Of a stretch of DNA of 64,000 nt, positions 1,315 to 63,395 are shown in pieces. Origin of the DNA: Tetrahymena thermophila SB210 (taxonomy: Eukaryota; Ciliophora; Oligohymenophorea; Hymenostomatida; Tetrahymenidae). The position numbers and the translations under genes are program-made. The stretch lies in the NCBI RefSeq assembly GCF_000189635.1, contig NW_002476578.1, positions 124,001 through 188,000 of the forward strand. The letters run 5' to 3'. Positions within the stretch are counted from its first letter, which is position 1, and each line of letters starts with the position of its first letter. The notes under the pieces are model-generated. The model did no database searches, was not told the origin of the DNA, and saw only the letters and a program-made list of their open reading frames with translations.

Positions 1315-2925
1315 TCAGAAAAGAAAAACTAAGAAAATAATACTTAAAGTCATTTTAATGATAATAGAGTTTGTATTAATATCATTACTATAAATATCAG
1401 TAGGTTCACTCATCATAGATTAACAAACTGAATCATCTAAACCTTTAGTTATTGCACCATCAGTATAAGTATTTTCTGGGCAAGCCTGACATTAAACTTC
1501 TGTATTAATATCATAATAACCTGTTTTGCTATAAAAACCATACCCACAAGGCCTTAGATTACAATCTGTAGAGCCTTCTAAAGAGTGTGTACCTGCATCA
1601 CAATATTAACAATGAAACATATAATTTTAATGATCAGAATAATAACCTGATTAACTAAAATAACCTTCAGGACATAATTTTAATTATATATCACAAACTG
1701 AGTCATCATTTCCTTTCGTATTGTCATATGTCGTAAATTTACCTTTTGGACATTTTTAACATTCATCTTCTTAGCTTGAAATATAATATCCTCTTGTGCT
1801 ATAAAAACCATAACCACAATATATTAGATCACATATTTAAGAGCCTTCAAAAGAATAAGTACCTGGATAACAAATAAAACATCCATTCCCTTTCCCATCA
1901 AAATCATAACCTGTATAACTAAATTTACCTTCAGGACACATTTTTAACTATAAGTCACAAACTGAGTCATCATTTCCTTTCGTATTTTCATATGTCGTAG
2001 ATTTATCTATTGGACATTTTTAACAATCATCTTCTTAGCTTAAAATATAATATCCCGTAGAGCTATAAAAACCATAACCACAAGGTTTTAGATTACATAT
2101 TTTAGAGCCTTCAAAAGAATAAGTACCTGGATCACAAAAAAAACATCCATTCCCTTTCCCATCTAAATCATAACCTGTATAACTAAATTTACCTTCAGGA
2201 CACATTTTTAACTATAAGTCACAAGCTGAGTCATCATTTCCTATCGTATTTTCATATGACGTAGATTTACCTATTGGACATTCTTAACAACCATCATCTT
2301 AAGTTAAATCATTATATCCTGTTGGGCTATAAAAACCTTTGGAACAAGATATTAGATTACACCGTTTTGAGCCTGCTAAAGAGTAAGTATCATATCTACA
2401 CTTTTTACACTCGCTATCTTTTGCATTACCATTATAACCTGTAGTACTCCAATAACCTTCAGGGCATTTATCTAATTACAAATTGCAAACTGAATCATCC
2501 TTTCCAATTGTAGTTTCTTGTTAGGTTGATTTACCAATAGGGCAAGCTATACAATATCCATCGTCATATATATTGTAATAACCTGCCTTACTATAATAGC
2601 CATAGCCGCAAGGGGCTAGATTGCAAATAATAGAACCTTCTAACGCGTAAGTTCCAATCTTACAATCCTCACATCCATCGCCTCTTCCATCACGATCATA
2701 ACCAGTATTGCTCCTTTTACCAGCTTAACATGCTCTAGCAATACAAACTGATTAATCAGTACCTAGAGTAGCTACATCTAGAGTACATGTGCCTTTAGCG
2801 CATCGAGTACAAGGGCCATCATTATCTGTCCCATCCTTACTAAAAGTACAACGTTTACAGTCTTTATTATATGCTACTTTTACCAGAGAGAAAGCAAGTA
2901 TCAAACAAAAAACTATTGAATTCAT
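1315..2925 (-). CDS. Cysteine-rich GPI-anchored surface antigen-like protein, copy 1
   Basis: Intact 536-residue frame. It begins with a signal peptide (MNSIVFCLILAFSLV), followed by a Cys-rich region with about five repeats of roughly 80 residues. Each repeat contains a CGYGFYS-GYY block, a CxxCP-GKST block, a DDSVCDLQL-CPEG block and a GYD-DGKGNGC-CxxGTYS block. The end is a short Ser/Asn-containing linker and a hydrophobic tail with TGA directly after it, which is the layout of a GPI-anchor signal. Ciliate immobilization antigens share signal peptide, periodic CxxC repeats and GPI tail; assignment to that class is inference from architecture. This copy differs from the others in its N-terminus (MNS... 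rather than MYS...) and in the tail, and is the most diverged intact member. An alternative is a generic growth-factor-receptor-type Cys-rich protein. Confidence 0.8.
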
Positions 2926-3437
2926 TTAGTTTATATATTCTGTATCTTTTTTTAGGATTTTTTAAATTTATTATCTATTAATTATAATTCTCATAGGCTC
3001 TTAACTTAAAATAATAAGACTAGTGCTATAATTATTTATTTATTTTTCTGTTACTGTATGAATTATTTTTACATTATTTCTATTTAATACAGCTCTTATA
3101 TAAGAGTCAATTTTTTTCTTAAATTAAGAATAATTTTATCTTAAAACTAAACCTATGAGCAACAAATAGGTGGTTAATCAAAGAATAAAATTATAAATCA
3201 ATTAAACTTAAGATAATTTCTTGTGAAAGGAATATTTTTTGAAATTATAATTTCCTTTTGTTGGTTCTTTTTAAAGGTAATAAAAATGAATCTCAATATT
3301 TTTTATAAGCCATATATAAAATAATATTAAAATTTAAAATAAAAAATAAAATTGCAAATAGATTACCGTAGTACCGTAATTCCTCTATACGATTGTACGA
3401 ATCGCGTACGAGGAATAAATATTTTTAGGCAAAATTA
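2926..3437. other. Upstream spacer of antigen copy 1
   Basis: AT-rich 5' flank of the first antigen gene. It resembles the flanks of the other copies at first, then runs into unrelated sequence containing the hairpin at 3379-3416. No coding region seen. Confidence 0.5.
3379..3416. other. CG-containing imperfect hairpin
   Basis: ATTCCTC at the left pairs with GAGGAAT at the right. Inside, TACGATT faces AATCGCGTA with a short GTACG loop. Several CpG steps sit in a region that otherwise has almost none. Role unknown; it has no counterpart that I noticed in the sister spacers. Confidence 0.6.
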
Positions 3438-4340
3438 AAATTTCATGATTTTATTACTTTCTCAGTTCTACTCTGTGCTCTTATTGAGGTTTTATGGTAA
3501 TAGTTAGTTAGGAAGTAAATCTAAATTTAGGATACTAAAAATTAAATTTATATTTGTCTAAAATATCATAATTTAGATCTAGAAAATTTGTTTACTAGTG
3601 TGGAAATAATTAAATTCAATAATGTATTTAATTTAGAGCTACTCTCTCTTTCTATGAAATAAAAGTACAAAATAATATATTTGATTTAACTATTAGTTGA
3701 CTGACAATCCATATTTGATATATAAAAATAAAATTTAGTAAATTATAGTTTATAGAGTTTTTGCTTAAATAAATAATTAAAAATTTAATAACAAATGTAA
3801 GATTAATTTTTCATTTATATTTTTGTACTCAAAAATTTGTTAGATAGTAAATTTAATCATTTTCTAAAAATTTTTATTCTGAGGTAATATTAAAGCTGAA
3901 ATTTAAAAATATTGAGTTTAATATTTGCTAATAATACATAAAATATATATATCAATCATTTAAATTATGCTAAAATTTTAAAAATTAAATATTAAATTTA
4001 TTAATTAGGTATAAAACATTTTTTTAAGTCTAGTTTAAGTATGTAAATAAAAACAGATAAGAATATACAATAAATTGATTATAGTAAATTTATAAATGAA
4101 AAATGTTTAAAAATAATATTTTAAACTATTATTAAATGAAAATATTATAGAACCAATCTTAACATAAATTAGCATAATTACTTTTGAACTAAAATATTTA
4201 AGGTGGATTATATTGATTATTTTGTTAAAAATGAAATAAATTATGTTCATAATTATTATCCAAATAGTTTGTTTTTAGATATATTTAGATTTAATAATAT
4301 TAATCCTTTTTTTTATTTAAACACACTTAATTTAGCAATA
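3438..4340. repeat. Spacer block B, copy 1
   Basis: Begins near a motif reading CTTTCTCAGTTC followed by CTGTGCTCTTATTGAGG. The same block recurs at about 23393-24204 and, as its right half only, at 17221-17655. Each copy runs into a decayed antigen on its right. No gene seen inside. Confidence 0.7.
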
Positions 4341-5842
4341 TTTTTTACCTTTTAGCTGAATCATCTAAATTCTTGGTAATAGCTCCATCAGAATAAGTAT
4401 TTTTTGGACAAGTTTTACTTTAACTTCTGAATTAATACTGTAAAAACCTGTTGAGATATAAAAATCAAAACCACAAGGCCTTAGGTAATAGATTTTAGAA
4501 CCCTCGAAAGAATATGAAAATCTTCACATCCTTCCCATTTCCATTAGAATCATAACCTATATCACTCCATTTACCATCAGGACAGAAATTTAATCTCATA
4601 CTGCATACTGTATCATCTATTCCTTTTGTATTTTCTAGTTGGTTAGATTTACCTGTTGGGAATTTTTAGTATTCAGTTTATTTAGAAAGCTTTTAATAAC
4701 ATTTTTTTGTTATTATAGCTATGTCCATAATACTTTAGATCACAACTTTTAGAGCCTGCTAAAGAATAAGTACCTGGCTCACAGTCATAACATTCATCCC
4801 CACTCCCATCAAAATCATAATCTTAATCTTAATAACTAAATTTACTTTCAGAACACAACCATAACTATACATTACAAACTGATTGATCATTTTCTATTGT
4901 ATTTTCCTGCTTGGTAGATTTCTCTATAGAACACTCATTACAATTAAATTTTGTATTCTAATCGCAATATCCTGTTTTACTTTATAATAACCTTAACCAC
5001 AAGGTCTTAGATCACAATTTTTTGAGCCTACTGAGAATGAGTACCAGGTCTATACTTCTTACATTCACTTCCTTTTCTATTAGCATGATAACCTGTAAAA
5101 CTATATATACCTTCAAGACACTATTTTAATTTAAAAGTAAAAACTGTGTCATTATCTCTTGTTGTAATTTCTTTTTTGGTTGATTTACCATTTGGGCAAC
5201 GATTACATTTAGCATTATATCTACTATCGGAATATCCTGCTTAGCTATAAAAACCATAATCTAGATAATAAAAAGATAAACCTTCTTCAGGATAAGTACC
5301 AGCCTTACGAGTTTAACATCCATTACCATTTCCATCACTATCATAACCTGATTCACTTTATGTCATTCAGGGTATAATTTTAATTTTACCTCACAAACAG
5401 AATCATTATCTCCTTTTGTATTTTATTGTTTGTTGGATTTTTCATCTGGAAAATAGTCACAAATTTAATCTCTATCTCCTTCATTTCTATCTTAGTAGCT
5501 TGTTTCACTATAATAGCCATACCCGCTAGGGATTAGATTAAATTCTGTAGAACTTTTCAAAGAGTAAGTTCCATCTTCACAATCATTATATCAATTCCCT
5601 TTTGCATCAAAATCATAGCCAGTTGCGCTATATTTACCTGCCTATAATTTTCTAGCAACACAAATTAATTAATTAATTCCTTTAGTTGCTCATTCTATAG
5701 TAAATGTACCTTCATCGAATGGAGTATAAGGGCTATCATTATCTTTTCAATCTATACAAAAATTGCAAAGTTCACAGTCAGCTGTATATGCTCCCTGTAA
5801 TAGAGTGAAAGCAAGTATCAAACAAAAAAGTTTTGAATTCAT
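4341..5842 (-). pseudogene. Decayed cysteine-rich surface antigen, copy 2
   Basis: Clear homology to the intact antigens over most of the length: signal peptide start at 5842 (MNSKLFCLILAFTLL), CxxC repeats, CPEG and GYD-DGKG blocks. The frame is broken by in-frame TGA codons within the first 35 codons and again soon after, plus many small indels, and several cysteines of the repeat are lost. The C-terminal hydrophobic tail is missing or unrecognisable. It shares its first-exon variant (FCIDstop or FSIDstop) with the fragment near 13.9 kb and the decayed copy at 17.7-18.7 kb, so these three probably descend from one already-dead ancestor. Confidence 0.85.
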
Positions 5843-6986
5843 TAAGTTTATTTATTCATTTATTCTGTTTCATTTTTATTAATTATTTGTAATTTATTAT
5901 CTAAAATAATTATAATTTTTTTAACAGCCTAAATTTAAAAAATAAGACCAGTACTATAATTAATTATCCTATAAAGAGTATATCATTTGGTTTTATATTA
6001 TTTAAAACACCAAGTGTAAATATATAGCAGTTTGATAAAGGATACAATTATAAATCAATCAAAATAAAGATTATTTATTATGGAATAAATTTTTTTTGAA
6101 AGATCTAATTCCCTTTGGTTAATTCTTCATTTAAGCCAATAAAAATGGATATTTGTATTTTTCATTAGCCATACTTACTTTAATCTTAAATATAAAGCGA
6201 TCTATAAAATTGCAAATACAAATTTATTCAAAAATATTTTTAATTAGTATCTAGTAAAAAAATAAATCTAAAATTAGTTTAACATAAATACATTTATATA
6301 AATCATCCATCTACATTTGTTAAAAGTCACATTTTTATTTTAAATTAGAAATAACAAACAAACAAAAATAAAATGTATAAAATAGCATATGGTAAGAACA
6401 ATAACTATACACCCTTCCCTCCTCCATGTTTTACCTTAGATTTATTTAATATTTTTAGTTACCTAGTACAGGAGGGTTTTCTAATCAAGTAATTAAAGCA
6501 TCTAATTTAGAGGTAAAGTATCTATATATTCTTAGCATAATAAATTAAATTTTAGTACAAAATAAAAAATTTAATTAAGAGCTAGACTCATTGACAACTA
6601 TCCTTATTTGGTATGATAAAATTTAAATGATTTTTTATAGGCTTTTCAATTTGATAAATAATTAATATTATACTAATAAAGTATACTGACTTAATGTATT
6701 TAAATATTTATATATAAATTAAATATGAATTAAATTATGCTAATAATTAATATCCTTATCTATTTGATAGTGCATAATAATCCTCTTTTTTGGAATCTAA
6801 ATATTTAACTATTTAATTTTTTAAATTTTTAATATCTTAAAATTATATTTAAAAACAAATTTCAATATCAGTTCAACAAATAAATGTAACCATTAACAAA
6901 ACTCTCTAAAAATAAGTATTAAATATTAATAAATAGCTTAATTTCTGATAATAAATTTATATTTAATATATTTTTATCAATCAGTT
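5843..6986. repeat. Spacer block C, copy 1
   Basis: Recurs at about 13970-15463, 18720-20098 and 24341-25442, always between a decayed antigen (its 5' side) and the 3' end of a full-length antigen. Landmarks are a CCCTTCCCTCC motif followed some 50-70 bases later by ACAGGAGGGTTTTC, and a final stretch TTTCAGAAAAGAGCAAC overlapping the antigen stop. No coding region recognised. Confidence 0.75.
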
Positions 6987-8624
6987 TCAGAAAAGAGCAA
7001 CTAATAAAACAAAACTTAAAGTAGTTTTAATGATAATAGAGTTTGAAGCATATCTTTCACTTTCAAAAATACTTGACTAATAAGGTATACAAATTGAATC
7101 ATCTAAACTTTTGTTAATATGTACATTAGTATAAGTATTTTATGGACAAGCCTTACATTTTTCTTTTGAATTAATATTGTAATAACCTGTTTCGCTATAA
7201 AATTACTAAGCACAAGGCCTTAGATCACAGCTTGTAGAACCCTCAGTAGAGTACGTTCCTCCATCACATTCTTCACATCCTTTCCCTTTTCCATCATAAT
7301 CATAACCTGTATTACTCCATTTACCTTCAGGGCACTTATTTGATTGCACACTGCAAACTTTATCATCTATTCCTTATGTATTTTCTTGTGGGGTAGACTT
7401 ACCTATTGGGCATTGTTAACATTCTGTCTCTTTAGAAATATAATAATAGCCATTTATGTTATAATAACCATAACCACAATACTTTATATCACACCTTGTA
7501 GAGCCTACTAAAGAGTGAGTACCTGGCTCACAATCAGAACATCCGTTCCCTTTCCCTTTCCCATCAGAATCATAGCCTGAACCACTATATTTATCTTAAG
7601 GACAGAATTATCGCTACACATCACAAACTTTTTCATCTTCTCCTTTTGTCTTTTGCTCCCTAGTAGTTTTGTCTGGAGGGCACTTAGTGCAATCAAAATC
7701 CTATTAAACATTGAAATATCCTGTTCTACTATAATAACCATAATCACAAGGCTTTAGTAAACAATATTTTGAGCCTAATTCAGAATAAGTACCAGATCTA
7801 CACTTCATACATTCTTTACCTTTTATATTACCATCATAACCTGTAGTACTAAATGTACCTTCAGGACACACTTTTAATTACAAATTACATGCTTTATCAC
7901 TATCTCCTATAGTCATTTCTTTATCAGTTGATTTATCAAGTGGGCATTTTCTACATTTGCCTATAATAAAACCATTGTCATATCCATTTTTGCTATAAGT
8001 GCCAATACCACAGACTTTTAGAAAACACCCCATTTCACCTTTATTTGAGTGAGTACCAGGCTCACATTTTTAGCATCCACTGCCTTTTCCATCACTATCA
8101 TAACCTGTTCCACTATATGTACCTTCAGGACATTCTTCTAACTGTAAATCACAAATAGTATGAATAGTATCTTCACCTTCCTCATCTTAATATCCTATTG
8201 TATTTTCTTTTGAGGTGGTCCTATAAACTGGGCATTTTTCACATAACTCTCTTTTAAATCCTTTATTTTTATTGTAGTAACCTGTTTCGCTATAATAGCC
8301 ATAGCCACAAGGGATTAGATTGCATTCTGTAGAACCTTCCAAAGAGTAAGTTCCATCGCGACAATTAGTGCATCCCTTCCCCTCTTCATCAGAATCATAT
8401 CCAGTTTAGCTAAATTAACCAGCCTAGCATTTTTTAATAGAACAAGCTAATTAACTAGTTCCTATAGTTCCTTTTCGTGGAGTACATGTACCTTCATCGC
8501 ATTTAGTACAAGGGCCCTTATCATCTTTTCCATTTATACTAAAAGTACAAAGCTCACAGTCAGCTGTATATGCTATCTATAATAGAGCAAAAGCAAGTAT
8601 CAAACAAAAAACTTTTGAATACAT
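6987..8624 (-). CDS. Cysteine-rich GPI-anchored surface antigen-like protein, copy 3
   Basis: Intact 545-residue frame. It has a signal peptide (MYSKVFCLILAFALL), then an N-terminal block with CELCTFS and CTKCDEGTCTP, then about five repeats, each opening with a CGYGYYSETGYY-like block. Each continues with CxxCP-KST, CDLQLEECPEGTYS and GYDSDGKG-GC. The frame ends in NSIIIK plus a hydrophobic stretch and TGA, as expected for GPI attachment. Many TAA/TAG codons fall at positions where sister copies have CAA/CAG, which supports the glutamine reading. Unlike copies at 20099 and 25443 it lacks the Ser-Glu run before the tail. Surface immobilization-antigen-like role is inferred from architecture only. 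Confidence 0.82.
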
Positions 8625-9315
8625 TAAGTTTTATTTATTTATTCTGTATCTTTTTTATTATTTTCTTATAATTTATTATCTAAATTAATTATGTTTTCTT
8701 AACTGACTTAATTTAAAATAATAAGACTAGTACTATAATTAGTTATTATGCAAAGTATATATCATTTGGTTCTATGAGATTTTCATTTAAAACAAAAACT
8801 AGTTTTTTTCATAAATTAAGAGCATTTTAATCTTTTTAAATAAAGAAGTTTAACAAATAAGTAGTTTACTAAAGGATTACATTATAAATCAATCAAAATA
8901 GGGTGATTTATTTTGAAATGAATTTCTATTGAAAGATCTAACTAATTCCGTTTTGTTTGTTCATCTTTAAAGACAATAAAAATATATTTCAATATTTTTC
9001 ATTCATTAACCATACATACATTAATCTGACATTTAAAATGATCTATATAATTGTAAATAAAAAAATACTCAAATGAATTTTTAATTAATAGCTAGTAAGA
9101 AAATAGATCTATATTTAGTAAAACAAAAAATACATTTATATCATCAAAATTAATTAAAAGTCACAGTTTTATTTGAAATTAAAACAAAAAGAAAAAAATA
9201 CACAAAATAAAATATAGTAAGAAAATTATAAAACCTACTCATATTGAGGTAAAATAGGGAGGGAGAGAGGCAGTTAAATAATAAATATGAAATAATTTGA
9301 TTTTTTTAATTAATC
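8625..9315. repeat. Spacer block D, copy 1
   Basis: 5' flank of antigen copy 3. Also found at 21770-22467 and 27066-27751, each directly upstream of a full-length antigen, so it probably carries their promoters. Landmark near the distal end: TATTGAGGTAAAATAGGGAGGG. In the other two copies block D passes directly into block A; here it is followed by the 3.4-kb segment with the membrane-protein copy. Confidence 0.75.
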
Positions 9316-9534
9316 TATTATCTATTTCTAATATAAATTTAATTAAAAATATACCATACCCTATTAAAATCATAAAAATCTGAGAAAACGATGTAAACTA
9401 AACTGTGTATTATAAATTTGCTTTTATAAGACTTAATTATTCAAATACTCTATACCTTTATCTAATAGGTATATTTTTTTAACTCAAATTGACAAATTTT
9501 AAAAGCTAAAACCTTAAAAGAAAAGAAATTTTTG

Positions 9535-12379
9535 ATGGACAGCCACATAATTGACTTAGTTAAAAAAAACTATTACTAAGAAAACCTTTTTGAATCATAT
9601 GATTTGCAAAATATTTAAAATATATTGCATCCACTTTTAGAGAAGCTCCGAGAAGTAAAACTTTTTAAGATAATAAACAATGATATAAATGGTAAAATAA
9701 AGCAGCAAGAAATAAAAAAAATTACTATAAAACCATTAAACTGTTTGGAGAATATATAGAGCTAATAATAGGATTAATTTCCTTTAAATTGCAATAATTT
9801 TGAAATATAGAGTCATTTGAATTTAATAAACTAAGATTGCAGATAAAATATTATGAAAAACTAAAAATTTGGAGATTCGTTAATTAAAAAACAGCTTCAA
9901 GATATTGAATAATATGGAGCTTTTACTACGTAAATAAATAAAATTTTATATAAGCCTTAAGTTTTATATAAACAATTTATTTTTATAAAATATTTAGACA
10001 TTTGCAGGAAGGATAATAACAAAAATGGCAGATCTATAAGAATTTATATATTCCGAAAACTGAAATGTAAATAAAATACAAATCAAAAGATCTTTTAGAA
10101 AAATATAGCATGTAATAAATTAATTAATTTACTTTTCAAATATTTGAAAATTTTAACATTTTTATTTTTAAAATTTACTCTAGCATACTTAACGAAGACA
10201 CAAATAAGAGGATCAGAGCTAAAAAATGGAAATATTTCAGGCTAAATAAGAGATATATTAACTTTAAAAATGGGATTTATACTTTGTTTTATGATATACC
10301 TTTTCAATTACTCAACTGTCTGATAGGAGTCCATGTGACTATCAAGAAAAAATTAGGATTAGATGAATATCTAGACAGCAATTTTATTGATATTTAACCT
10401 GAAATAAATTATTTGAAAAGATTAAACATATTCAATTAAAAAGATATCTAAGATTAATTATTGAATTGTCCTATTATTGATTTGATCAGCGAAATAGTCA
10501 GATAGCTAAAGTGGACTGAATTTTTATTTTCATACAAAAAAAATTTAGATCTGTACATTTACATTGAAGTTTTGAAAAATGTCTTCAGTCCAAATGTATT
10601 AAAACTCAACAATTAAGATTATTAAAGAGTTTTTGAAAAAGTTTTAGGAATTTTTATCATAAATTCATTCAAAGAAAAGATAAAATCTAGCCAAAGTACT
10701 TGCATAGAGTTATTTAATGATTGCTTATCTTTCCTTAATTATTATAAACTAGAGTCATTTTAGAAAAAACTATTAAAAATACAATACAAGTTTGAAAGTA
10801 TTAGTATAAGAAAGGCCTATAAAGATTTACCAGTAGACAGTTTCTTAGCATAGAGGTAAAAATACTTTTGGAAAATAGAGTAGAATTGGATAAATAATAC
10901 AGTGATTTCTTCCATAAATACTTTAATGGAAAATGTAATTTATGGAAATTTTGGTATTAAAGTTGTATTTTGTAAAAAAAATTCTGAAGGCAAAAATTTA
11001 AGAACTCTATATGAAAATTTCTAGGATATTAAATAAACTGTGAGATAAAGAATTTAAAAAAAGCTATTATAAAGTTTATAAGTAGAATAAGTTGACGATG
11101 ATGAAGAAATATTTGGAGAATGCTGTTTTAGGTTTACGATATGCACATATTTTTTAAATTATTTTTTTGTTTACTTAGTATATGGCATAATATATACTAA
11201 TATTATATTAAGAATATTTGGAATTTTCCTAATACTACTCTAGTCATTACTCTTAATAATAATTTCCCTTGAAAATTTAGTATTTTTTTTAATAACATAC
11301 AGCTTCAATTATCTTTTATGATAAATTCAATAGAAGTAGTCTAAATATTCCTTTTGTCTTTCCCATCTTACAAATTCTAATTATCAGTCCTTTTTTTGGT
11401 ATTCTAAAAATAATATTATCTGCACTAAAAAGTATATTACTATTGGTTGAGCATTTAGTTTTGAAACTTAAAATATTACCTATAACTTTGAAAAATGTTT
11501 TTGCATTTATGCTAATAAAATTATTTGGCTAAATACCAATAAGAAATTCAAGATTCTGCAAACTTGTAAATCCAGAAAATAAAAAACATTAATATGAGAG
11601 ACTATAAAATTAAGTTATTATAAATGAATAAATACATATTAATTTATTAAATAATATGCAGAATAATAAAATTTTTCATTAATTTTGTTAATCCCCAAGC
11701 AATTAACAAGGTTAAAATAATAAAAAAAGAAAACTTACATACTTATCATTTGAATATATTAGAATAGTTATAGACTGCACCATCAGTAAAATGTACTTGT
11801 AATACTTATAATTTTAATTAAAAAATTTCAAAAATTAACATGTTAATTAAAGATAATAGGTTGTTAGAAACTGTCTTTTATAATTGCCTTTCAAAATAAA
11901 CAATATTTTAAGTTTAAAAAAATGCTGAGTAGCTTGAGTTAGAAATTAGTAAAGTATTAAAGTAACAACATCTAATAGAATATTAAATTGAATACAAAAA
12001 AGACAGTTAAATTTCTTATGAAAAAGAGCAATTAAATAAATATATTAACAAATTGACTATTATCTTAAATCTTTTTCTGAAGTAGATTAAAATAAATATA
12101 AAATAGTTTGCTAATTTGCAAATATTTAGCCAGGAAATTTTTGTAAAATTGAGGCTTTATTTTCTATAAATAGTATTTCACGGCTAGTTTTCCTAATTTA
12201 GTTAAAAATCTTTATTCGATTAACTCACAGGGTATTTCGAATTTGATCCAAAAGATAAAAATTTAATTAATTACATAAAAAATTATCTTAAAGAAAACTT
12301 TTAATAATAAAATGCACTATTTTAATTTAGTGATCTTAGTAATATTTTTCACAAAATTATTTAGTTATTTTCTAATTGA
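9535..12379 (+). pseudogene. Damaged membrane-protein paralog
   Basis: A frame opening with MDSHIIDLVKKNYY at 9535 runs to a TGA at 10321. A second frame, open from about 10200, continues to a TGA near 11319 and ends in several hydrophobic stretches (GIIYTNIILRIFGIFLILL). A third frame continues to a TGA at 11926. From 11527 on the sequence is a close copy of 2-856, but it carries a 5-base deletion near 11905-11920 and a 1-base deletion near 12035, which remove the last 150 or so residues in frame. The first two frame changes might be hidden introns, since an AT-rich GT...AG stretch spans about 11131-11331; the two deletions cannot be. Best read as a pseudogene or a truncated gene of the family at the left edge. 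No known family recognised. Confidence 0.55.
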
Positions 12380-31344: not shown

Positions 31345-34300
31345 ATGAGCTTAAAGCAGAATTATTAGGAAAAAGATAAGAATGCGTAATATTTAGAGTG
31401 TTTTAACATTTTGAAATAGATATAATAGATTAAACCTGACAAGTTTTCTTAAAAAATTGTTGATACAAGTCTTATCCTTCAGTTATAAAAACTATCTCAG
31501 AAAATATAATAAACTAAGAAGCACTAACTTCATGAATAGACGACTAGATATTAAAACTACCTTCCATCTCCATGTAAAATATGACTTTATAAGCAATAAA
31601 TATTTTCTTTATTTTTTTAATATTTTTACTCAAAATAGAATTTCAGTCTCCTTCAAAAGAAGGCAATTTAACTAATTAAGCGAATAAGATTTTACAAAAA
31701 CTAAGCTATAAAAGAGTGTTGAAAGAAGTTTTTGGAATTATGTGCTTACAAGAAGTAAAAGCTTTCTTGTTTGTCGTTTAAATTTATTTTAATTTATGAA
31801 TAAATAACAGTGTATTTTTCCTTACTTTGAATTCGAAGAGCTTATTTAATTAAGGTTAGTGTGTAAATCATTCTAGGATGCTTTTAGTTAATTTTTCACT
31901 TAGTTACTACCCTAACTTGAGCAAACTCTTATCAGATACATAGTATTAATAAATTTTAAAAGGCAAAACATTTTATTATTGTTATGAAAAAAGTTTAGAA
32001 ACCCAGATTTGGACTTATCAGAACTAAAGAAGGCTGCTTATTTCTAAATTCCTTATGAAATCAGGGAATGGGTTATTTTAGATTCTAGATAATGCTAAAA
32101 TGTAATCGAAAATACTCTTTATAGATAAGACATAGATTCTTTAAAGCAAATCAAAAAAGTACCTAAGCAATTCGATGCTTCGTTTGCTCCTTTCTGCATA
32201 CTTTTAGGGATTAAATAACCGATACAATATCATAAAGGAGATGGAAAATTAGAAATGAGCTGGCATAGCTAGTTCTTAAAGATAACTTCTTCAACAAATA
32301 ATATTTTAAAGTTTATGAGTTTGGATTTCAGCAAAATAACATAAAATTAAATAGATGAAATAATATTTTATTTAAATTAATTTACTTTTCAGTAGTTAGA
32401 AAACTTTAATTCATCAGCTCTTAAGTTGTTTGTATGGACAAGGGCATTAGTTTCTCTCTATCATATAGATAACATATTTAAAATAAGGAAGCCTAACGAG
32501 TAAAATTATTTGAATAATAATAGGTTTATTAATATTATTAATATATTTTATTTAGATTGATAGGAAAAATAGACAATAAGATCATAGAAAGTATGTTCAT
32601 CATTTAGAAAGAAAAAGGAATAATTAATAAATTGAGAAGAATAATGAAAAATGATAAAATGTTTAAAATCTACTTAGACTTCAATTAGATTGAAAAACCC
32701 AAAGCTGTTTAGGATAAAAACATACATTTTTTTAGCTTAGACAATGCTTAGCTAATATAGCAATTTTTAAATTATTTGACTCTTAAAGATATTTTAAAGC
32801 TAAGGTCAACAAATACTTTTATCAAGGAGCTATGTCATGTTTATATTCTTAGTTGTTTGAGTGAATAAATCACTTCTTTAGAGAGAAAAAAAATGCTTCA
32901 CATTAATTAGATATACCCAGTCTTACCTTCTTTATATGAAAATTGTTTTTTTTCTGATTTTTTTGATGTCTCATCTGAAATTCTTATGAAAAAGTTATTT
33001 CTTGTTGATCGTCACTCTTTCTCTAGATTTAAATGCTAAACGAAACCAAGCCATTCTTTAGAAAAATTTTGCAAGATAGTGTCTATAATTTTCAATATTT
33101 AACCATAATAAAATAGTTTACAAACTACACAATAAACAAAATAGATTTCTACACTATAATAAACTATGAACCAAACGCTTAATCAAAGCAATTAGAGAGA
33201 TCAATATTTCTAATATATAAAAAACTCAATCAACTCAAAAACATTTGAAAGCTAATTAAAATAATTTAATCCCTTTCATATAAATCCTGAAGTAAAATTA
33301 AGAATATTTTCTGATATATAATTAAATTAATTTCAATTAATTTTTAACAGAAAATAAAAGAGTGTGAGGAAATAGCTTTTAGTCTAGAAAGTGATTTGAT
33401 GAAGGATCCTAATTAAATAGGTATTATAGAAGATTTATAAGGATTAAGATTGTACATAAATCTATTAATCATTTTTTATAGAGCTACTATGCCTCTAGAT
33501 TATTGCAATTCTAATATATTTTAAGAAAACCTCTTAGATGTTTATTCTGATATTTACAGTATAACTGATTCTTGTTAGAGGCTTTTCAAAATTTGCTATA
33601 ACTTTTCTCTGCTTACTCCAGAAAATATGAAAATTATTGTCTCCTAAGCTTTTGAATCTCTTTAGAATGATCACTAACATCTTGTAACATAATTGAAGGT
33701 AAAAAATAAATATAATTTATCAAACAATCATATTCAATTCATAAATAAATTTTTAAGTAATTCAAAAAAAATATTTTAAAATTAAAAATAATAATTCAAT
33801 TAGAAGTTTAATTTTTATAAATTTTTTACTAAAAATTTATTTACAAAAACTATTCTGATTTTTTAATTTATTTTAATCGAACAAAATAATTAATTTATTT
33901 TTATATAAATCCAAATTTATATGCGAATATATAATTTTAACAGAAAAAGGAGTTTTCATAATTAAAACATCTATACCAAAGAGCAAGAGATTCAAAAGAG
34001 TTAAATGGGGATAAAGTGTAACTTATAATAATTGAGCTAATAGAGAGATATAACACTTAGTAGAGAAGTAATGAAGTGACTTAAAAAATTAAGTAGGCTA
34101 AAGAAAAGTAGGAAAAAACATAAAACTTTTTGAATTATTTCAAACATTTCTTCTTGAGAAATATTTTAAATTTTTTGCCTTTGTAGGATCTATTATCATT
34201 TGGATTAGTTAGTAAAAATGCTTTTTAAATTTATAATATATATTTACACTTTAGAATTCACATTGAGGCTTCTTAGATAAGAAATTTAGAGCTTAAATTT

Positions 34301-35305
34301 GAAAATTAAGTAAATTATTTACTCATTTTTTAAAGCAGTTTTAATTTTATTCTTTTACCAATAAATAGATAAAGAGTATTGATAGAAAAAAGAGAATTTA
34401 CTTTTAAGATTCTGAAATTGATTATCCAAAAAAGGAACATGCCATTTAGCTTTTAACAGAAATAAGTCTTAAGGATGTTAGTAATCTTAAAAGAATAACT
34501 AAATCATGTGCAGGTTTTGACTTATTTGCCAAGCCTGTTGTTGAGTTACTTAACATTAAATTAGAGTACAAAATAGTGTATTTGAAAAAGCAAGTTGATT
34601 ATTGGACAAGTTTATTTAAATTTATGCAAATTAATGATTTTAATAAAATTCTTCAGGAGTTTTAAGTGGAAATCGTTGAAACTGCTAAAATAAAGAAAAT
34701 CGAAAGCTATATCAAGGAAAATTAAAACTTCACAATTCAAAATGCATTTAAATTGAGTGAATCATTATCAAAATTAGTCAAATGGATTTTTGGTAAATTA
34801 AATAAATATTGTAAGTTAATTTTAAATTAAATTTAATTAAAATATATTTTTAGGTGTTTTGGAAATACACAAATTCCTGAGACGATATAGTTTATGCGAG
34901 GAATAAGAAGAAATGATGGATATTAATGAGTTAAAAATAGCTAATTATCTTGATTTTAGATAAAAGTAATCTTATAAAATGCTTAGATATATAGGCAAGC
35001 ACACTGAATACTAAAAAGAATATGAATACTGGAGCCAAATATTCTTAAAAGAAAGCAATAAATAAAGAAGATAAAAAGAAATTTAAATAATTGATGAAAG
35101 CAAATAACCTAATAGCAAAATTAAACGAGTGAATACATAAGATACTAATTAAAACTTAAAAAAGAGCAAAATAGATGAAGAGGATGAGGAAGAAGATTCA
35201 AGCTCATTTTAAAATTAAAATTATAACTATCTGAATTAATCTGAGCAATTTATAAATTCAAAGCAACCAGTTTAGGATTATAAAATGAATAAATCTGCAA
35301 TTTGA
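31345..35305 (+). CDS. F-box-like protein with two dynein microtubule-binding-domain-like modules
   Basis: Nine exons: 31345-31573, 31639-31754, 31811-31942, 31994-32523, 32556-33291, 33351-33698, 33944-34309, 34369-34810, 34854-35305; phases agree, total 1116 residues. Three F-box-like segments: about 116-146 (FEFEELIQLRLVCKSFQDAF), 400-432 (LTLKDILKLRSTNTFIKEL) and 768-800 (LPLQDLLSFGLVSKNAFQI). Two modules, about 202-326 and 850-985, follow the pattern of the dynein heavy-chain microtubule-binding domain. Each has DI/DVxxLKxI, a helix (FCILLGIK or VVELLNIK), a Trp after a short insert, then a Phe/Ile-rich helix, an IESYIKEN-like helix and an LxxWxxxxxxxY helix. No AAA motor, P-loop or long coiled-coil stalk is present. 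The C-terminus is acidic and basic low complexity. F-boxes normally dock Skp1 in ubiquitin ligases, so a microtubule-linked adaptor is an inference; the segments could also be diverged helical repeats. Confidence 0.7.
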
Positions 35306-57691: not shown

Positions 57692-58659
57692 TTTTGTTGA
57701 TTCAATCAAATTGACATATTTTATACACTCTACCAACTCTTTTAAATAAAAATAATTATTCTCATAAATTCTAAATATTTCTCTATACCTAACAATTAAA
57801 ATCAAATTAAATAAATAATTATACAATATTCATTTTACAAATTTAGTATTTTAATGTAATCACATTCATTCATATCACTCATTCATGGTTGTTTCCATTA
57901 TTATTTCAATTAGTTAATCTTCAAAAGTAATATTTAAATTTATTTTACATCCGAATATCTAAATAAATAAAACAACCAACAAATAAATAAAAAAGTAAAT
58001 AAATCTTACAAAATTATGAAATAAATTTATCTTAAATATTCTATCTAATTTATTACTTAAGATCTATGAAAGTATTAGAGAAAAACGGATTTAATAAAAT
58101 GATAGCAAATTTGTTTTTTCAAAGTTGTGAAATGAATTTACTTTGAATCCTCTATATTAAATTCTCGAATATTCTAATTGTTAGAAGTTTTAATTTTAAA
58201 AATATCTTTATTAAATTTTCTAGAAATTTTGAAAAATGTAAATAAAAATTAACGAAAATACAAAATATAAATTATCCAAAGTTGTATATAATATTTTTTT
58301 ACATTTTGGCTCTAAAAAATACCAGGGCTATTAAAATATAACTATTTGTTATAATACATTTTGATTGTTAATCAATGAGATTTTTTTTTTTGACTAAAAT
58401 AAATTCATTTAAAATTTATAATAGAATTATAATTAGTAATTTATTCTTTTTATAGATTTTAAATATTATGTGCATAGTAATCTTAGTTTTATAGAGCAAT
58501 TGATATTTACTAAACTAAAAACAACAAATAAAGTAAAAGGACAGGTTCAAATAGACAAATCATTTTTTCTATTTAAAAATATAGCTATTCTTAGTTTAAA
58601 AGAGAAATTGATTGATATTTTTTAAATTAAAAAGATCAGATAAAGTCAAAATCAAAGTT
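57692..58659. other. Intergenic spacer, nothing recognised
   Basis: About 1 kb AT-rich spacer between two plus-strand genes, holding the importin 3' end and the promoter of the next gene. No element recognised. Confidence 0.5.
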
Positions 58660-60564
58660 ATGTTTTAGAAATCAAAAAACTCTATTTATATGCTTAAATA
58701 AATAAGGTATTTAATAAGAGGGCTAAATTTTAGTGATCACCACATCAGAAGCTGCTGTTATAAGAAGGGTTCATTAGAAAATAATAAATTCTACTTTAGT
58801 GTGGCTAATAAATTGGTAAACATCGAAAATGAGGGAGAAGTTATTCATTTTGAGGATTCCTTAGCTAAAGTTTCTGGCTTAAGAAACTCCAAAACTGGTG
58901 AATTAATTTAGTTTAGTGGAGGTGTTAAAGGCTTGGTAATTGATCTATACGAGGAATATGTTTCAGTTCTAGTTTTAAGCAACCAAAATATATAAGTAGG
59001 TAGCATTGTAAATAGAAGCAATGAATAATTTAGTATGCCAATAGGCTATGAGTTATCTGGAAGAATCTTAAATGCTCTTGGCAATCCGATTGATAATTTA
59101 GAGACTACAAAAACTAATTAAAACTAAATAATTCCTATTTATACATTTTAGTATAAAAATTAAGTTGATAAGATGATTGTAAAAGATTGTACTTATCCTG
59201 AATAGTTCAGAAATGTCTGTATATTTACTGGGATTAAGTTCTTTGATAGTTTTTTTAATATTAGGCCAGGATATTGCTACATATTTAACAGTTAAGAAAA
59301 AAAAAACATAAGTACAATATGTTAAGATATGGTAGTAAATAACAAATCTATGTTTGAACATAGTGATCCTTCAAAGTAACTTTATTATGTTTACGTTTTT
59401 GTTGGATAAAAGTAGACTGTTATGGATAAATTTATTTTTCGCTTAAAATAATATGATTGTATCAAATATACTACATTTGTTTGCTCTAGTGACTAAGACT
59501 CTTATTCCCTTTAATATTTAAGTATTTTTACAGGATAATCAGTTGCTGAATACATGAAAAGTTAAGGGAGAAGAGTGCTGATAATTTATGATGATTATAG
59601 TAAGCACTTTGAAAGCTTTAGTAAATTGTTAGCTGGACTTAAAAGGCCAACTTCTAATTAATTTTTATTACATGCAGCATAATCTTTATATTCTATTATT
59701 GCTAAAAGATAGAATATTGAATAATTTCAACAATTTCCAATAACTTAAATTGTGATGACATGCGGTGATAAAAAAAACTTCCTTTTTTAAATGTTTTCTA
59801 ATTTTGGTAATTGCTATCATTTTGAAAACTCACTCTAAAATTTAATTATTTAAGATGTTCTATTTGATATTAGTATTTAAGACCCTAGTCATATTTCACC
59901 TTATTATTATGATGGAGTTTTTTTTTATGCGAAATGGAAATTAATTTATTTTTATAAGTACAAAAGTTTGTATGATGATTTTTATTTGAATGAAGATATA
60001 AATTACATTAAAAATAGATTTGAATAACTTGATAAAATGAATCAAAAATATAAAACTTACAAACACAAAGTAAATATAATCTTAACAGAATGGTATAGGT
60101 AAAGAGCTTAAAACAAAATGCTTTTAAAAACAGATTTAACTTTTAAAAGAAAATTTTATGAAAGTTAATGTAATTATGATTATTTTGTAACGAGAAAATT
60201 ATTATTTGAATATTTTAAGTAAGATGACCATTAATGCATTTCAATTGTCGAATAATATTTTCTATAAAAAATTTTGTATTATTTGATATCTAATAAAATC
60301 CTCATTGATAACTATAGTAAGCTATAAAATGAAATACTCTAATACTTACGTCTTAATAAACCAGACTTACTTTAATAAGTTTTATAATAATACCTTCAAG
60401 ACCACAATTTTTTTTCTCGTAATATAAATGAAACATGGAAAATAGATCCATAAGATTAAATTAAAATAATTGCATAATATTTTTAAGATAAGCTAAAAGA
60501 AGAAGAAGAATAATAACAATAATAATAATAAAAATAATAGTAACTTGAGGCTTAATAATAATGA
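58660..60564 (+). CDS. Degenerate paralog of mitochondrial F1 ATP synthase alpha subunit
   Basis: Intronless frame of 634 residues. The basic, Ser-containing N-terminus (MFQKSKNSIYMLKQIRYLIR) could be a mitochondrial presequence. Then the alpha-subunit order is followed closely: HFEDSLAKVSGLRN (beta-barrel domain), GYELSGRILNALGNPID, FFDSFFNIRPG (alpha: AVDSL-PIGRG), YVYVFVGQKQTVMDKF (alpha: IYVAIGQKRSTVAQ), SLQYLSIFTGQSVAEYM and LIIYDDYSK (Walker B, about 305-313). The P-loop that should be GDRQTGKTS is NSQEKKNIS (about 209-217), without the Gly, Lys and Thr needed to hold nucleotide. The following RRPPGREAYPGD segment is shortened to RPTSN, and the C-terminal domain is unrecognisable and ends in a Gln-rich tail. 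A structural or regulatory pseudo-alpha subunit is inferred; a non-mitochondrial role cannot be excluded. Confidence 0.8.
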
Positions 60565-61716: not shown

Positions 61717-63395
61717 ATGACTTAAGAAATTATTAACATTACAGAAGACGGTGGTATCACCAAGCAAATTCTTCAATAAGGTGAAGGAGACGAATATCCA
61801 TAAGCTGGTTAGACTGTTGAAGGTAAATAAATCAATTTAATTTAAAGAAGAACTTACTTGTTAGTCACTTTCAATCAACACTCAAATCAAAGAAAGGCAT
61901 CGTTTTCTAATTAATTTCAAATTTTAAAAAAACAGTTTTATACACTGGAAAACTTCTTGATGGAACAGAATTTGATTCAAATACTAATAGAGATGATCCT
62001 TTTTCTTTCACAATTGGCAAAGGTTAGGTTATCAAAGGATGGGATTTAGGTAATATTCAAGAATTTGATTCTTAAAATCAGAGTCTGCAATAAAATTTAT
62101 TTAACAAAAAGGTGTTGCTACAATGAAGAGAGGTGAAAAGGCTGTCCTTACCTGCACAGCTCCTAATGCCTATGGTGAAACTGGAAGTCCCCCTAGAATT
62201 CCTCCTAATGCTACTTTACAATTTGAAGTTGAATTGATTGACTTCCGCGAGAGAACTAAAACAAAATGGGATTACTCATTAGAAGAAAGAGTTGAAATTG
62301 CCAAAAAATACAAAGATGAGGGTAATGACGCTTTCAAAAAAGGTGATCTTGAAGAAGCTGATGTTTTATACGATTAATGTATTGATTACGTTGATTTTGG
62401 TGAAGATGTTAATGGTTCTCTTGAACTTAAGTTCACTGCTTACCTTAACCAAGCAACAGTAAGAATAATTAAATTTACTTTTTAGAAAACAAAAATTTAA
62501 AAACAGCTGCAAAAAATAAATCAGCAACAATAGAATTATTTTATTTTTAATTAAATAGGTTTATAATAAATAAAAAAAATGGGACAAAGCTATTAAGAAT
62601 TGCACTATTGTTATTGAAAAGCAACCTAATAACATCAAGGCTTACTTCAGAAGAGGTACTGCTAGAATGAATTATGGTTTCTTAGATGAGGCTAAAGCTG
62701 ATTTCCATAAAGCACAAGAATTAGATCCTAACAATGCTGAAGTTATCAATTCTTTGAAAGTTCTTGCTTAGAAGTAAAAAGAAGCCAATGAAAAGCAAAA
62801 GAAAATGTGGGGTGGCCTTTTTAAAAATTCATATTATGACGACTAAAAATAAACTATTGTAGAATTCTCTGATCCTAGTAATCCTGTTGTTTTCTTTGAT
62901 ATTCAAATCGGAGAAGAAGAACCTTAGAGAGTTGAATTTGAGCTTTTCAAGAATATTGCTCCTAAAACTGCTGAAAATTTCCGTGCCCTTTGCACTGGAG
63001 AAAAAGGTACTGGCGTTTCAGGAAAGCCTCTTCATTATAAGGGATCCATATTCCACCGTCTTATTAAAGATTTTATGATTTAGGGAGGTGATTTCACTAA
63101 CTCTAACGGTACTGGAGGTGAATCAATTTATGGCGCCAAATTCCCTGACGAAGACTTCAAAGCAAAGCATACTAAGAGAGGTTTACTCTCTATGGCTAAC
63201 AGTGGTCCTAACACAAACGGAAGTTAGTTCTTTATCACCTTTAAAAAAACAGAATGGCTCGATGGTAAGCACGTAGTTTTTGGTGCTGTAACTAAAAATA
63301 TCGAATTCCTTGATAAACTTGAAAACTCTCCTTGCGAAGGCGAAAACCCATCTCCAAGCATTAAAGTTGTTGACTGTGGTGTCGTTAAAGCTTGA
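61717..63395 (+). CDS. Dual immunophilin: FKBP - TPR - cyclophilin in one chain
   Basis: Exons 61717-61822, 61936-62049, 62112-62458 and 62559-63395, in phase, 467 residues. Residues about 10-115 form an FKBP domain with the FK506-pocket residues kept: [28 protein letters not shown] and [10 protein letters not shown]. Residues about 125-275 contain three TPR-type repeats ([51 protein letters not shown]), the usual Hsp90-docking module. Residues about 297-467 form a complete cyclophilin with [29 protein letters not shown] and [11 protein letters not shown], so the catalytic Arg, Phe and Gln and the cyclosporin-contact Trp are present. Both prolyl isomerase domains look active. The order matches the FCBP-type immunophilin described from Toxoplasma. 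Likely a cytosolic chaperone cofactor. Confidence 0.92.

Follow-up and report, generated by a model that had tools for sequence, protein, structure and literature searches.

The dynein microtubule-binding domain (MTBD) is not known from any place but the tip of a dynein stalk. An initial annotation of a 64,000-nucleotide stretch of the Tetrahymena thermophila SB210 genome (the whole stretch is hereafter called the window) raised the question of whether this domain has been freed from dynein and joined to F-boxes in a protein of a different kind. A stalk-less protein keeping MTBD-like modules would show that the MTBD can live on its own, and the protein predicted here would offer a natural means of learning what such a stalk-less domain binds. 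The joining to F-boxes would directly tie microtubules or cilia to ubiquitin-dependent turnover, and Tetrahymena suits the study of such a protein, its genes being readily tagged and deleted.

Structure of the predicted gene

Gene models were derived using a splice-aware dynamic programme followed by manual changes. With ciliate code 6, the interval 31345..35305 (+ strand, as are all features below unless stated), delimited in the initial annotation, corresponds exactly to one predicted gene of 8-9 exons that starts with the ATG at 31345, ends with the TGA at 35303-35305 and codes for 1,115-1,124 aa. The dynamic programme itself returned 8 exons coding for 1,118 aa with a donor at 34793, and shifting this donor to 34811 (intron 34811-34853) resulted in a model of 1,124 aa. 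In a second model, the acceptor was shifted to 31638 and exon 2 was split by a 35-nt intron (31776-31810), giving a protein of 1,115 aa encoded by exons 31345-31573, 31639-31775, 31811-31942, 31994-32499, 32556-33291, 33351-33698, 33944-34309, 34369-34810 and 34854-35305, with a single stop, at its end. The 1,124-aa alternative does without the 35-nt intron and contains exon 31647-31942 instead; the two models have seven exons in common and exon 2 is uncertain. Splicing of the 35-nt intron lifts the score of the first F-box against PF00646 from 18.1 to 21.8 bits, which is a modest argument for the 1,115-aa model. A codon-usage measure trained on three presumed coding stretches failed to distinguish the chosen frames. 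The C-terminus is a polar, low-complexity tail (35050..35302); of the last 86 residues of the predicted protein, 15 are basic and 15 are acidic.

The coding sequence, about 3.3 kb in all, is open throughout the gene and interrupted by GT-AG introns. Were intron 32500-32555 retained, the frame would stop at 32558-32560, and since the next in-frame ATG (32593) lies only about 30 bases on, the gap is too short for two genes. No ATG occurs in the frame of exon 33944-34309 between the preceding stop and the exon end, and no ATG able to start a separate gene was found in the exons coding for the second of the two clear MTBD-like modules (module 3, see below). Modules 1 and 3 and the F-boxes are thus likely to be carried by one transcript, as judged from the sequence and from exon joins that are predicted.

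Two modules are related to dynein MTBDs

We constructed an MTBD profile from the dynein MTBDs of the same genome, seeded with three dyneins and extended over 24 loci (31 fragments), and ran it on the 918 ORFs of at least 40 aa found in the window. The best match was ORF 34303-34926 (46.4 bits, E = 1.9e-13), which contains module 3 (34432..34868, with intron 34811-34853 near its end), followed by ORF 31988-32557 (34.5 bits, E = 9e-10), which contains module 1 (32111..32473). The third-ranked ORF reached only 0.034, leaving modules 1 and 3 as the only strong matches. In the 1,115-aa model, the matches span residues 206-326 (module 1) and 840-970 (module 3). In a shuffle control, modules 3 and 1 scored 48.5 and 35.4 bits, respectively, compared to 16.1 bits for the best of 10,000 shuffles (5,000 for each module). 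Both modules proposed in the initial annotation are therefore found at their claimed places and above chance, with both diagnostic Trp present.

Comparisons of single sequences led to the same family. HHalign against 18 MTBDs of the same genome gave probabilities of 97.1% for module 3 and 95.6% for module 1. A phmmer search of 425 translated segments from dynein loci matched module 3 to dynein L008 (4.6e-9) and module 1 to dynein L018 (3.7e-5). Compared with every PDB chain (E up to 10), module 3 had 10 matches (best 0.0054), seven of which are named dynein; the other three, chains of 4,185-4,625 residues in the axonemal structure 8glv, are labelled simply AAA+ ATPase. We take them for dynein heavy chains, bringing the dynein matches to 10 out of 10. 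At the same threshold, the sole match of module 1 was a DNAH7 MTBD chimera (E = 0.99). With the whole protein as query, three PDB matches were obtained, one to an 8glv chain (0.083) and two to unrelated proteins (0.41 and 1.6).

Modules 1 and 3 keep both the helix 3 Trp and the helix 6 Trp, the latter being found in 17 of the 18 full dynein MTBDs of this genome. Where all 18 have their first Pro after helix 1, module 1 has V and module 3 has S; both modules are thus clear but divergent relatives. Both also carry an insert between helices 2 and 3, at the position of the flap. Net charges of +3, +2 and +8 for the modules, including the middle one described below, fall within or beside the range of +1 to +9 seen in the 18 dynein MTBDs.

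The Pfam dynein-stalk family PF12777 (344 positions), suggested in the initial annotation as a check, detected neither module in genome and protein searches, whereas the MTBD-only profile finds both; from its length, the PF12777 model probably covers the stalk too. AlphaFold2 models from single sequences had a confidence too low for use (pLDDT 44.5 for module 3 and 47.5 for module 1); they were helical with a long last helix, helices 2 and 3 being merged in module 3. Foldseek with the low-confidence model of module 1 returned nine matches (E = 5.2-9.5), none of them dynein. MAFFT alignments between modules were set aside because helices 3-5 looked misplaced. Taken together, the sequence comparisons provide a strong argument that modules 1 and 3 are homologous to dynein MTBDs.

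Specificity of the relationship across the genome

We searched the whole genome (101 Mb, 445 contigs) using MTBDs as queries. The MTBD of dynein L008 gave 27 matches at E up to 10, of which 26 lie in or beside 23 places also marked by PF12777. The 27th (2.5e-5), at G000:C4:158579-158791, corresponds to window positions 34579-34791, inside module 3. Conversely, module 3 used as a genome query found itself and the gene of L008 (2.6e-5) and nothing else, making the match reciprocal. Module 1 found itself alone, and a second dynein query, L018, returned 20 genome matches, none of them in the window; both results count against module 1 as a sequence that searches of this sensitivity can recognise. 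Among the best-scoring genome candidates from the two dynein MTBD queries and from modules 1 and 3, neither a further MTBD standing by itself nor a close paralogue of module 1 or of module 3 turned up.

One of the 20 matches of L018, on G000:C334, lies outside the PF12777 list and was considered as a second stand-alone MTBD. Its neighbours speak against this: a dynein AAA-lid (1.3e-9) and an AAA_9 match under the cut-off (22.7 bits, cut-off 27.4) flank the MTBD match, suggesting that the locus is a divergent dynein gene. This apparently intron-rich gene (positions 2685-9900 of locus L025 on G000:C334, − strand), absent from the results of the PF12777 search, has its MTBD in two frames, with the AAA-lid upstream and the weak AAA_9 downstream. 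Elsewhere in the genome, the 155-residue MTBD region of dynein L004 agrees at every residue with the outer-arm dynein heavy chain in PDB 7k58, a T. thermophila structure, which makes the genome that of T. thermophila or of a very close relative.

F-boxes and a probable third, decayed unit

The three F-box segments of the initial annotation fared unequally. F-box 3 (34154..34222) scores 23.6 bits against PF00646 and passes the Pfam cut-off of 20.5 by itself. F-box 1 (core at 31811..31888; PF12937 22.8 bits, PF00646 18.8 bits, cut-offs 24.3 and 20.5) is borderline and depends on the 35-nt intron: with this intron spliced it reaches 21.8 bits against PF00646, and at most 18.8 bits otherwise. F-box 2 (32752..32835) is weak (PF00646 13.1 bits, E = 0.098); PF00646 is the sole family matching a 49-aa segment around it, and in a 68-aa segment it comes fourth of four, behind unrelated families with similar scores. 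The whole 1,124-aa model exceeds both cut-offs, each time over two stretches (38.7 bits for PF00646 and 27.3 bits for PF12937). An exon-wise search of the genome returned seven PF00646 matches at E up to 0.001, all above the cut-off, and, for PF12937 with E up to 1, 17 matches with eight above the cut-off. None of these lies in the window, indicating that the F-boxes of the predicted protein are divergent.

Between modules 1 and 3, we found a likely, if less certain, decayed third copy of the MTBD-like module (module 2, 33004..33503, residues about 485-631), split by intron 33292-33350 and lacking both Trp; the absence of the helix 6 Trp was read from a helix placed by eye. Module 2 retains the Pro after helix 1. 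It scores 15.4 bits against the MTBD profile and was beaten by one of 10,000 shuffles (19.0), and its HHalign probability against the 18 MTBDs is 13.6%. The PDB search with its exon 33351-33698 gave four matches, none of them dynein, and phmmer against the 425 dynein-locus segments gave a best match of 0.13, with no MTBD among the matches. A third copy is also supported by comparing the units, each taken as an F-box together with the module that follows it. Unit 2 aligns to unit 3 with a score of 96 (maximum of 1,000 shuffles, 82), and unit 1 to unit 3 with a score of 91 (maximum of 1,000 shuffles, 73); similarity between units 1 and 2 was undetected (score of 38, equalled or bettered by 685 of 1,000 shuffles). 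In the alignment of units 2 and 3, the register holds over the F-box and helices 1-2 and is lost in the later part, helices 3-4 of module 2 falling opposite helix 5 of module 3. The distance from the start of the F-box to the start of the module is 82, 84 and 73 residues in units 1, 2 and 3, respectively. The location of module 2 beside the weak F-box 2 suggests that each F-box is paired with its own MTBD-like module, in the layout [F-box + MTBD-like] x3. The MTBD-like fold had been described as duplicated; two modules are indeed clear, and the unit as a whole looks triplicated, with a decayed middle copy that had been missed.

Dynein motor and stalk domains in the window

A dynein heavy chain is recognised by an AAA+ motor and a coiled-coil stalk around its MTBD, and neither was found in the predicted protein. 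With an E limit of 1 for the whole protein and of 0.01 for nine further ORFs of the window, no dynein family, AAA or stalk, was matched, in agreement with the initial annotation, which had seen no motor or stalk around the modules. Its proposal of an MTBD freed from dynein and joined to F-boxes keeps its core, given the sequence kinship to dynein MTBDs, the absence of motor and stalk matches and the presence of F-boxes in the same predicted protein; the number of copies has to be revised.

Other open frames of the window were also noted. Between 1315 and 27332 (− strand), a tandem family of surface-antigen-like genes is made up of at least five open frames that resemble each other (about 430-630 aa) and combine cysteine-rich repeats (CPEGTYS-TGYDSDGKGSGC-like) with a hydrophobic C-terminus; one of them was scanned against Pfam and gave no match. 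A 650-aa open frame with a glutamine-rich end (58612-60561, +) has a partial match to the ATP synthase alpha/beta family (PF00006, 66.8 bits, residues 207-357) and appears to be a divergent relative of F1 catalytic subunits. In the open frame at 62238-63392 (+), TPR repeats lie ahead of a cyclophilin domain, the opposite of the order found in Cyp40.

A putative microtubule-directed SCF adaptor

Since the charges of the modules lie in the dynein range, the insert between helices 2 and 3 sits at the place of the flap and the genome codes for Skp1 (63.4 bits for the better of two matches), we favour the reading that dynein-derived MTBDs have been reused in an F-box protein acting as an SCF adaptor directed to microtubules or axonemes, to which we give about an even chance. 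In the protein, three F-boxes would each be followed by a domain of dynein MTBD descent, giving three units of which 1 and 3 keep most of the marks. The MTBD-like modules, presumably retaining an MTBD-like fold, would hold the protein on tubulin without ATP-driven stepping. In dynein, the grip of the MTBD is set by the register of the stalk, and a stalk-less MTBD could bind constitutively. The F-boxes would recruit Skp1 and a cullin, upon which proteins located on the microtubule or in the cilium would be ubiquitinated. More speculatively, the freed MTBD tip may have been multiplied into a multivalent, ATP-independent microtubule reader in which each copy has its own F-box, thereby yielding a non-walking ubiquitin-ligase adaptor that marks axonemal or cortical microtubule proteins.

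Ranked behind the adaptor reading is the possibility that the modules derive from dynein but no longer bind tubulin, and have become ordinary protein-binding domains, for example substrate receptors, that could act anywhere in the cell. Modules 1 and 3 no longer have the first Pro that follows helix 1, module 2 has neither Trp, and F-box proteins usually carry a substrate-binding region behind the F-box. However, neither Trp has been lost from modules 1 and 3, whose positive charge is in the dynein range, and a dynein query still finds module 3 across the genome. We give a loss of tubulin binding a smaller but real chance. It is unlikely, in our estimate, that the protein is instead a scaffold or crosslinker whose several modules bind adjacent tubulins while Skp1 or another partner docks on the F-boxes and no ubiquitin is ligated. 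Multiple modules in one chain would suit such a role, and some F-box proteins have no ligase function, but one F-box per module would exceed what a scaffold needs and module 2 seems to have decayed.

An error in the gene model, with the modules belonging to different transcripts or the gene decaying, appears improbable. The uncertain exon 2, the intron 33699-33943, which at 245 nt exceeds the other introns in length, and the failure of codon usage to single out the chosen frame would all be compatible with it; against it stand the long open coding sequence with its GT-AG introns, the stop that a separate first gene would use, which lies just ahead of the next in-frame ATG, and the lack of an ATG start in the module-3 exons. 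Hardly credible at all is a chance match of helical sequence to the MTBD: neither PF12777 nor the low-confidence fold models lend support to the resemblance, but the shuffle control, the genome-wide specificity, the reciprocal match with L008 and the PDB matches of modules 1 and 3, which are to dynein only, all contradict an accident. The adaptor reading has points against it as well: PF12777 misses the modules, module 1 finds itself alone in the genome, the L018 query reaches neither module, the first Pro after helix 1 is gone from modules 1 and 3, the fold models have low confidence and Foldseek gave no dynein for module 1, F-box 2 and module 2 are weak, and the genome matches to the F-box families lie outside the window.

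Comparison with known systems

The closest relatives of modules 1 and 3 are dynein MTBDs of the axonemal type with a flap, such as those of DNAH1, DNAH7 and dynein-c, which they resemble from helix 1 to helix 6, including both Trp and the insert between helices 2 and 3. The best partner of module 3 in its own genome, dynein L008, has an MTBD that is nearest to DNAH1 in the PDB. In DNAH7, the flap contacts the neighbouring protofilament (PMC6629372). Unlike dynein, the predicted protein shows no stalk or AAA ring and carries its modules repeated in one chain, beside F-boxes; unlike dynein MTBDs, its modules are not reached by PF12777, and modules 1 and 3 have lost the first Pro after helix 1.

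F-box proteins (PF00646, PF12937), which act as SCF substrate adaptors, usually have one F-box together with, for example, WD40 or leucine-rich repeats. The predicted protein resembles them in having an F-box above the Pfam cut-off followed by a putative binding domain, and differs in having three F-box segments, each with an MTBD-like partner. A functional parallel only is offered by FBXO41, an F-box protein on a microtubule organelle: according to an excerpt that mentions no MTBD, it is an SCF subunit at centrioles and promotes cilium disassembly (PMC6546786). Among the full-text literature matches listed, a minority of all matches from a collection with few subscription journals, there was no F-box protein with a dynein MTBD and no MTBD outside dynein. 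Both domains are already known, and it is the pairing of repeated MTBD-like modules outside dynein with F-boxes that is undescribed among these matches. We therefore file the predicted protein as an F-box protein with dynein-derived modules, and not as a dynein.
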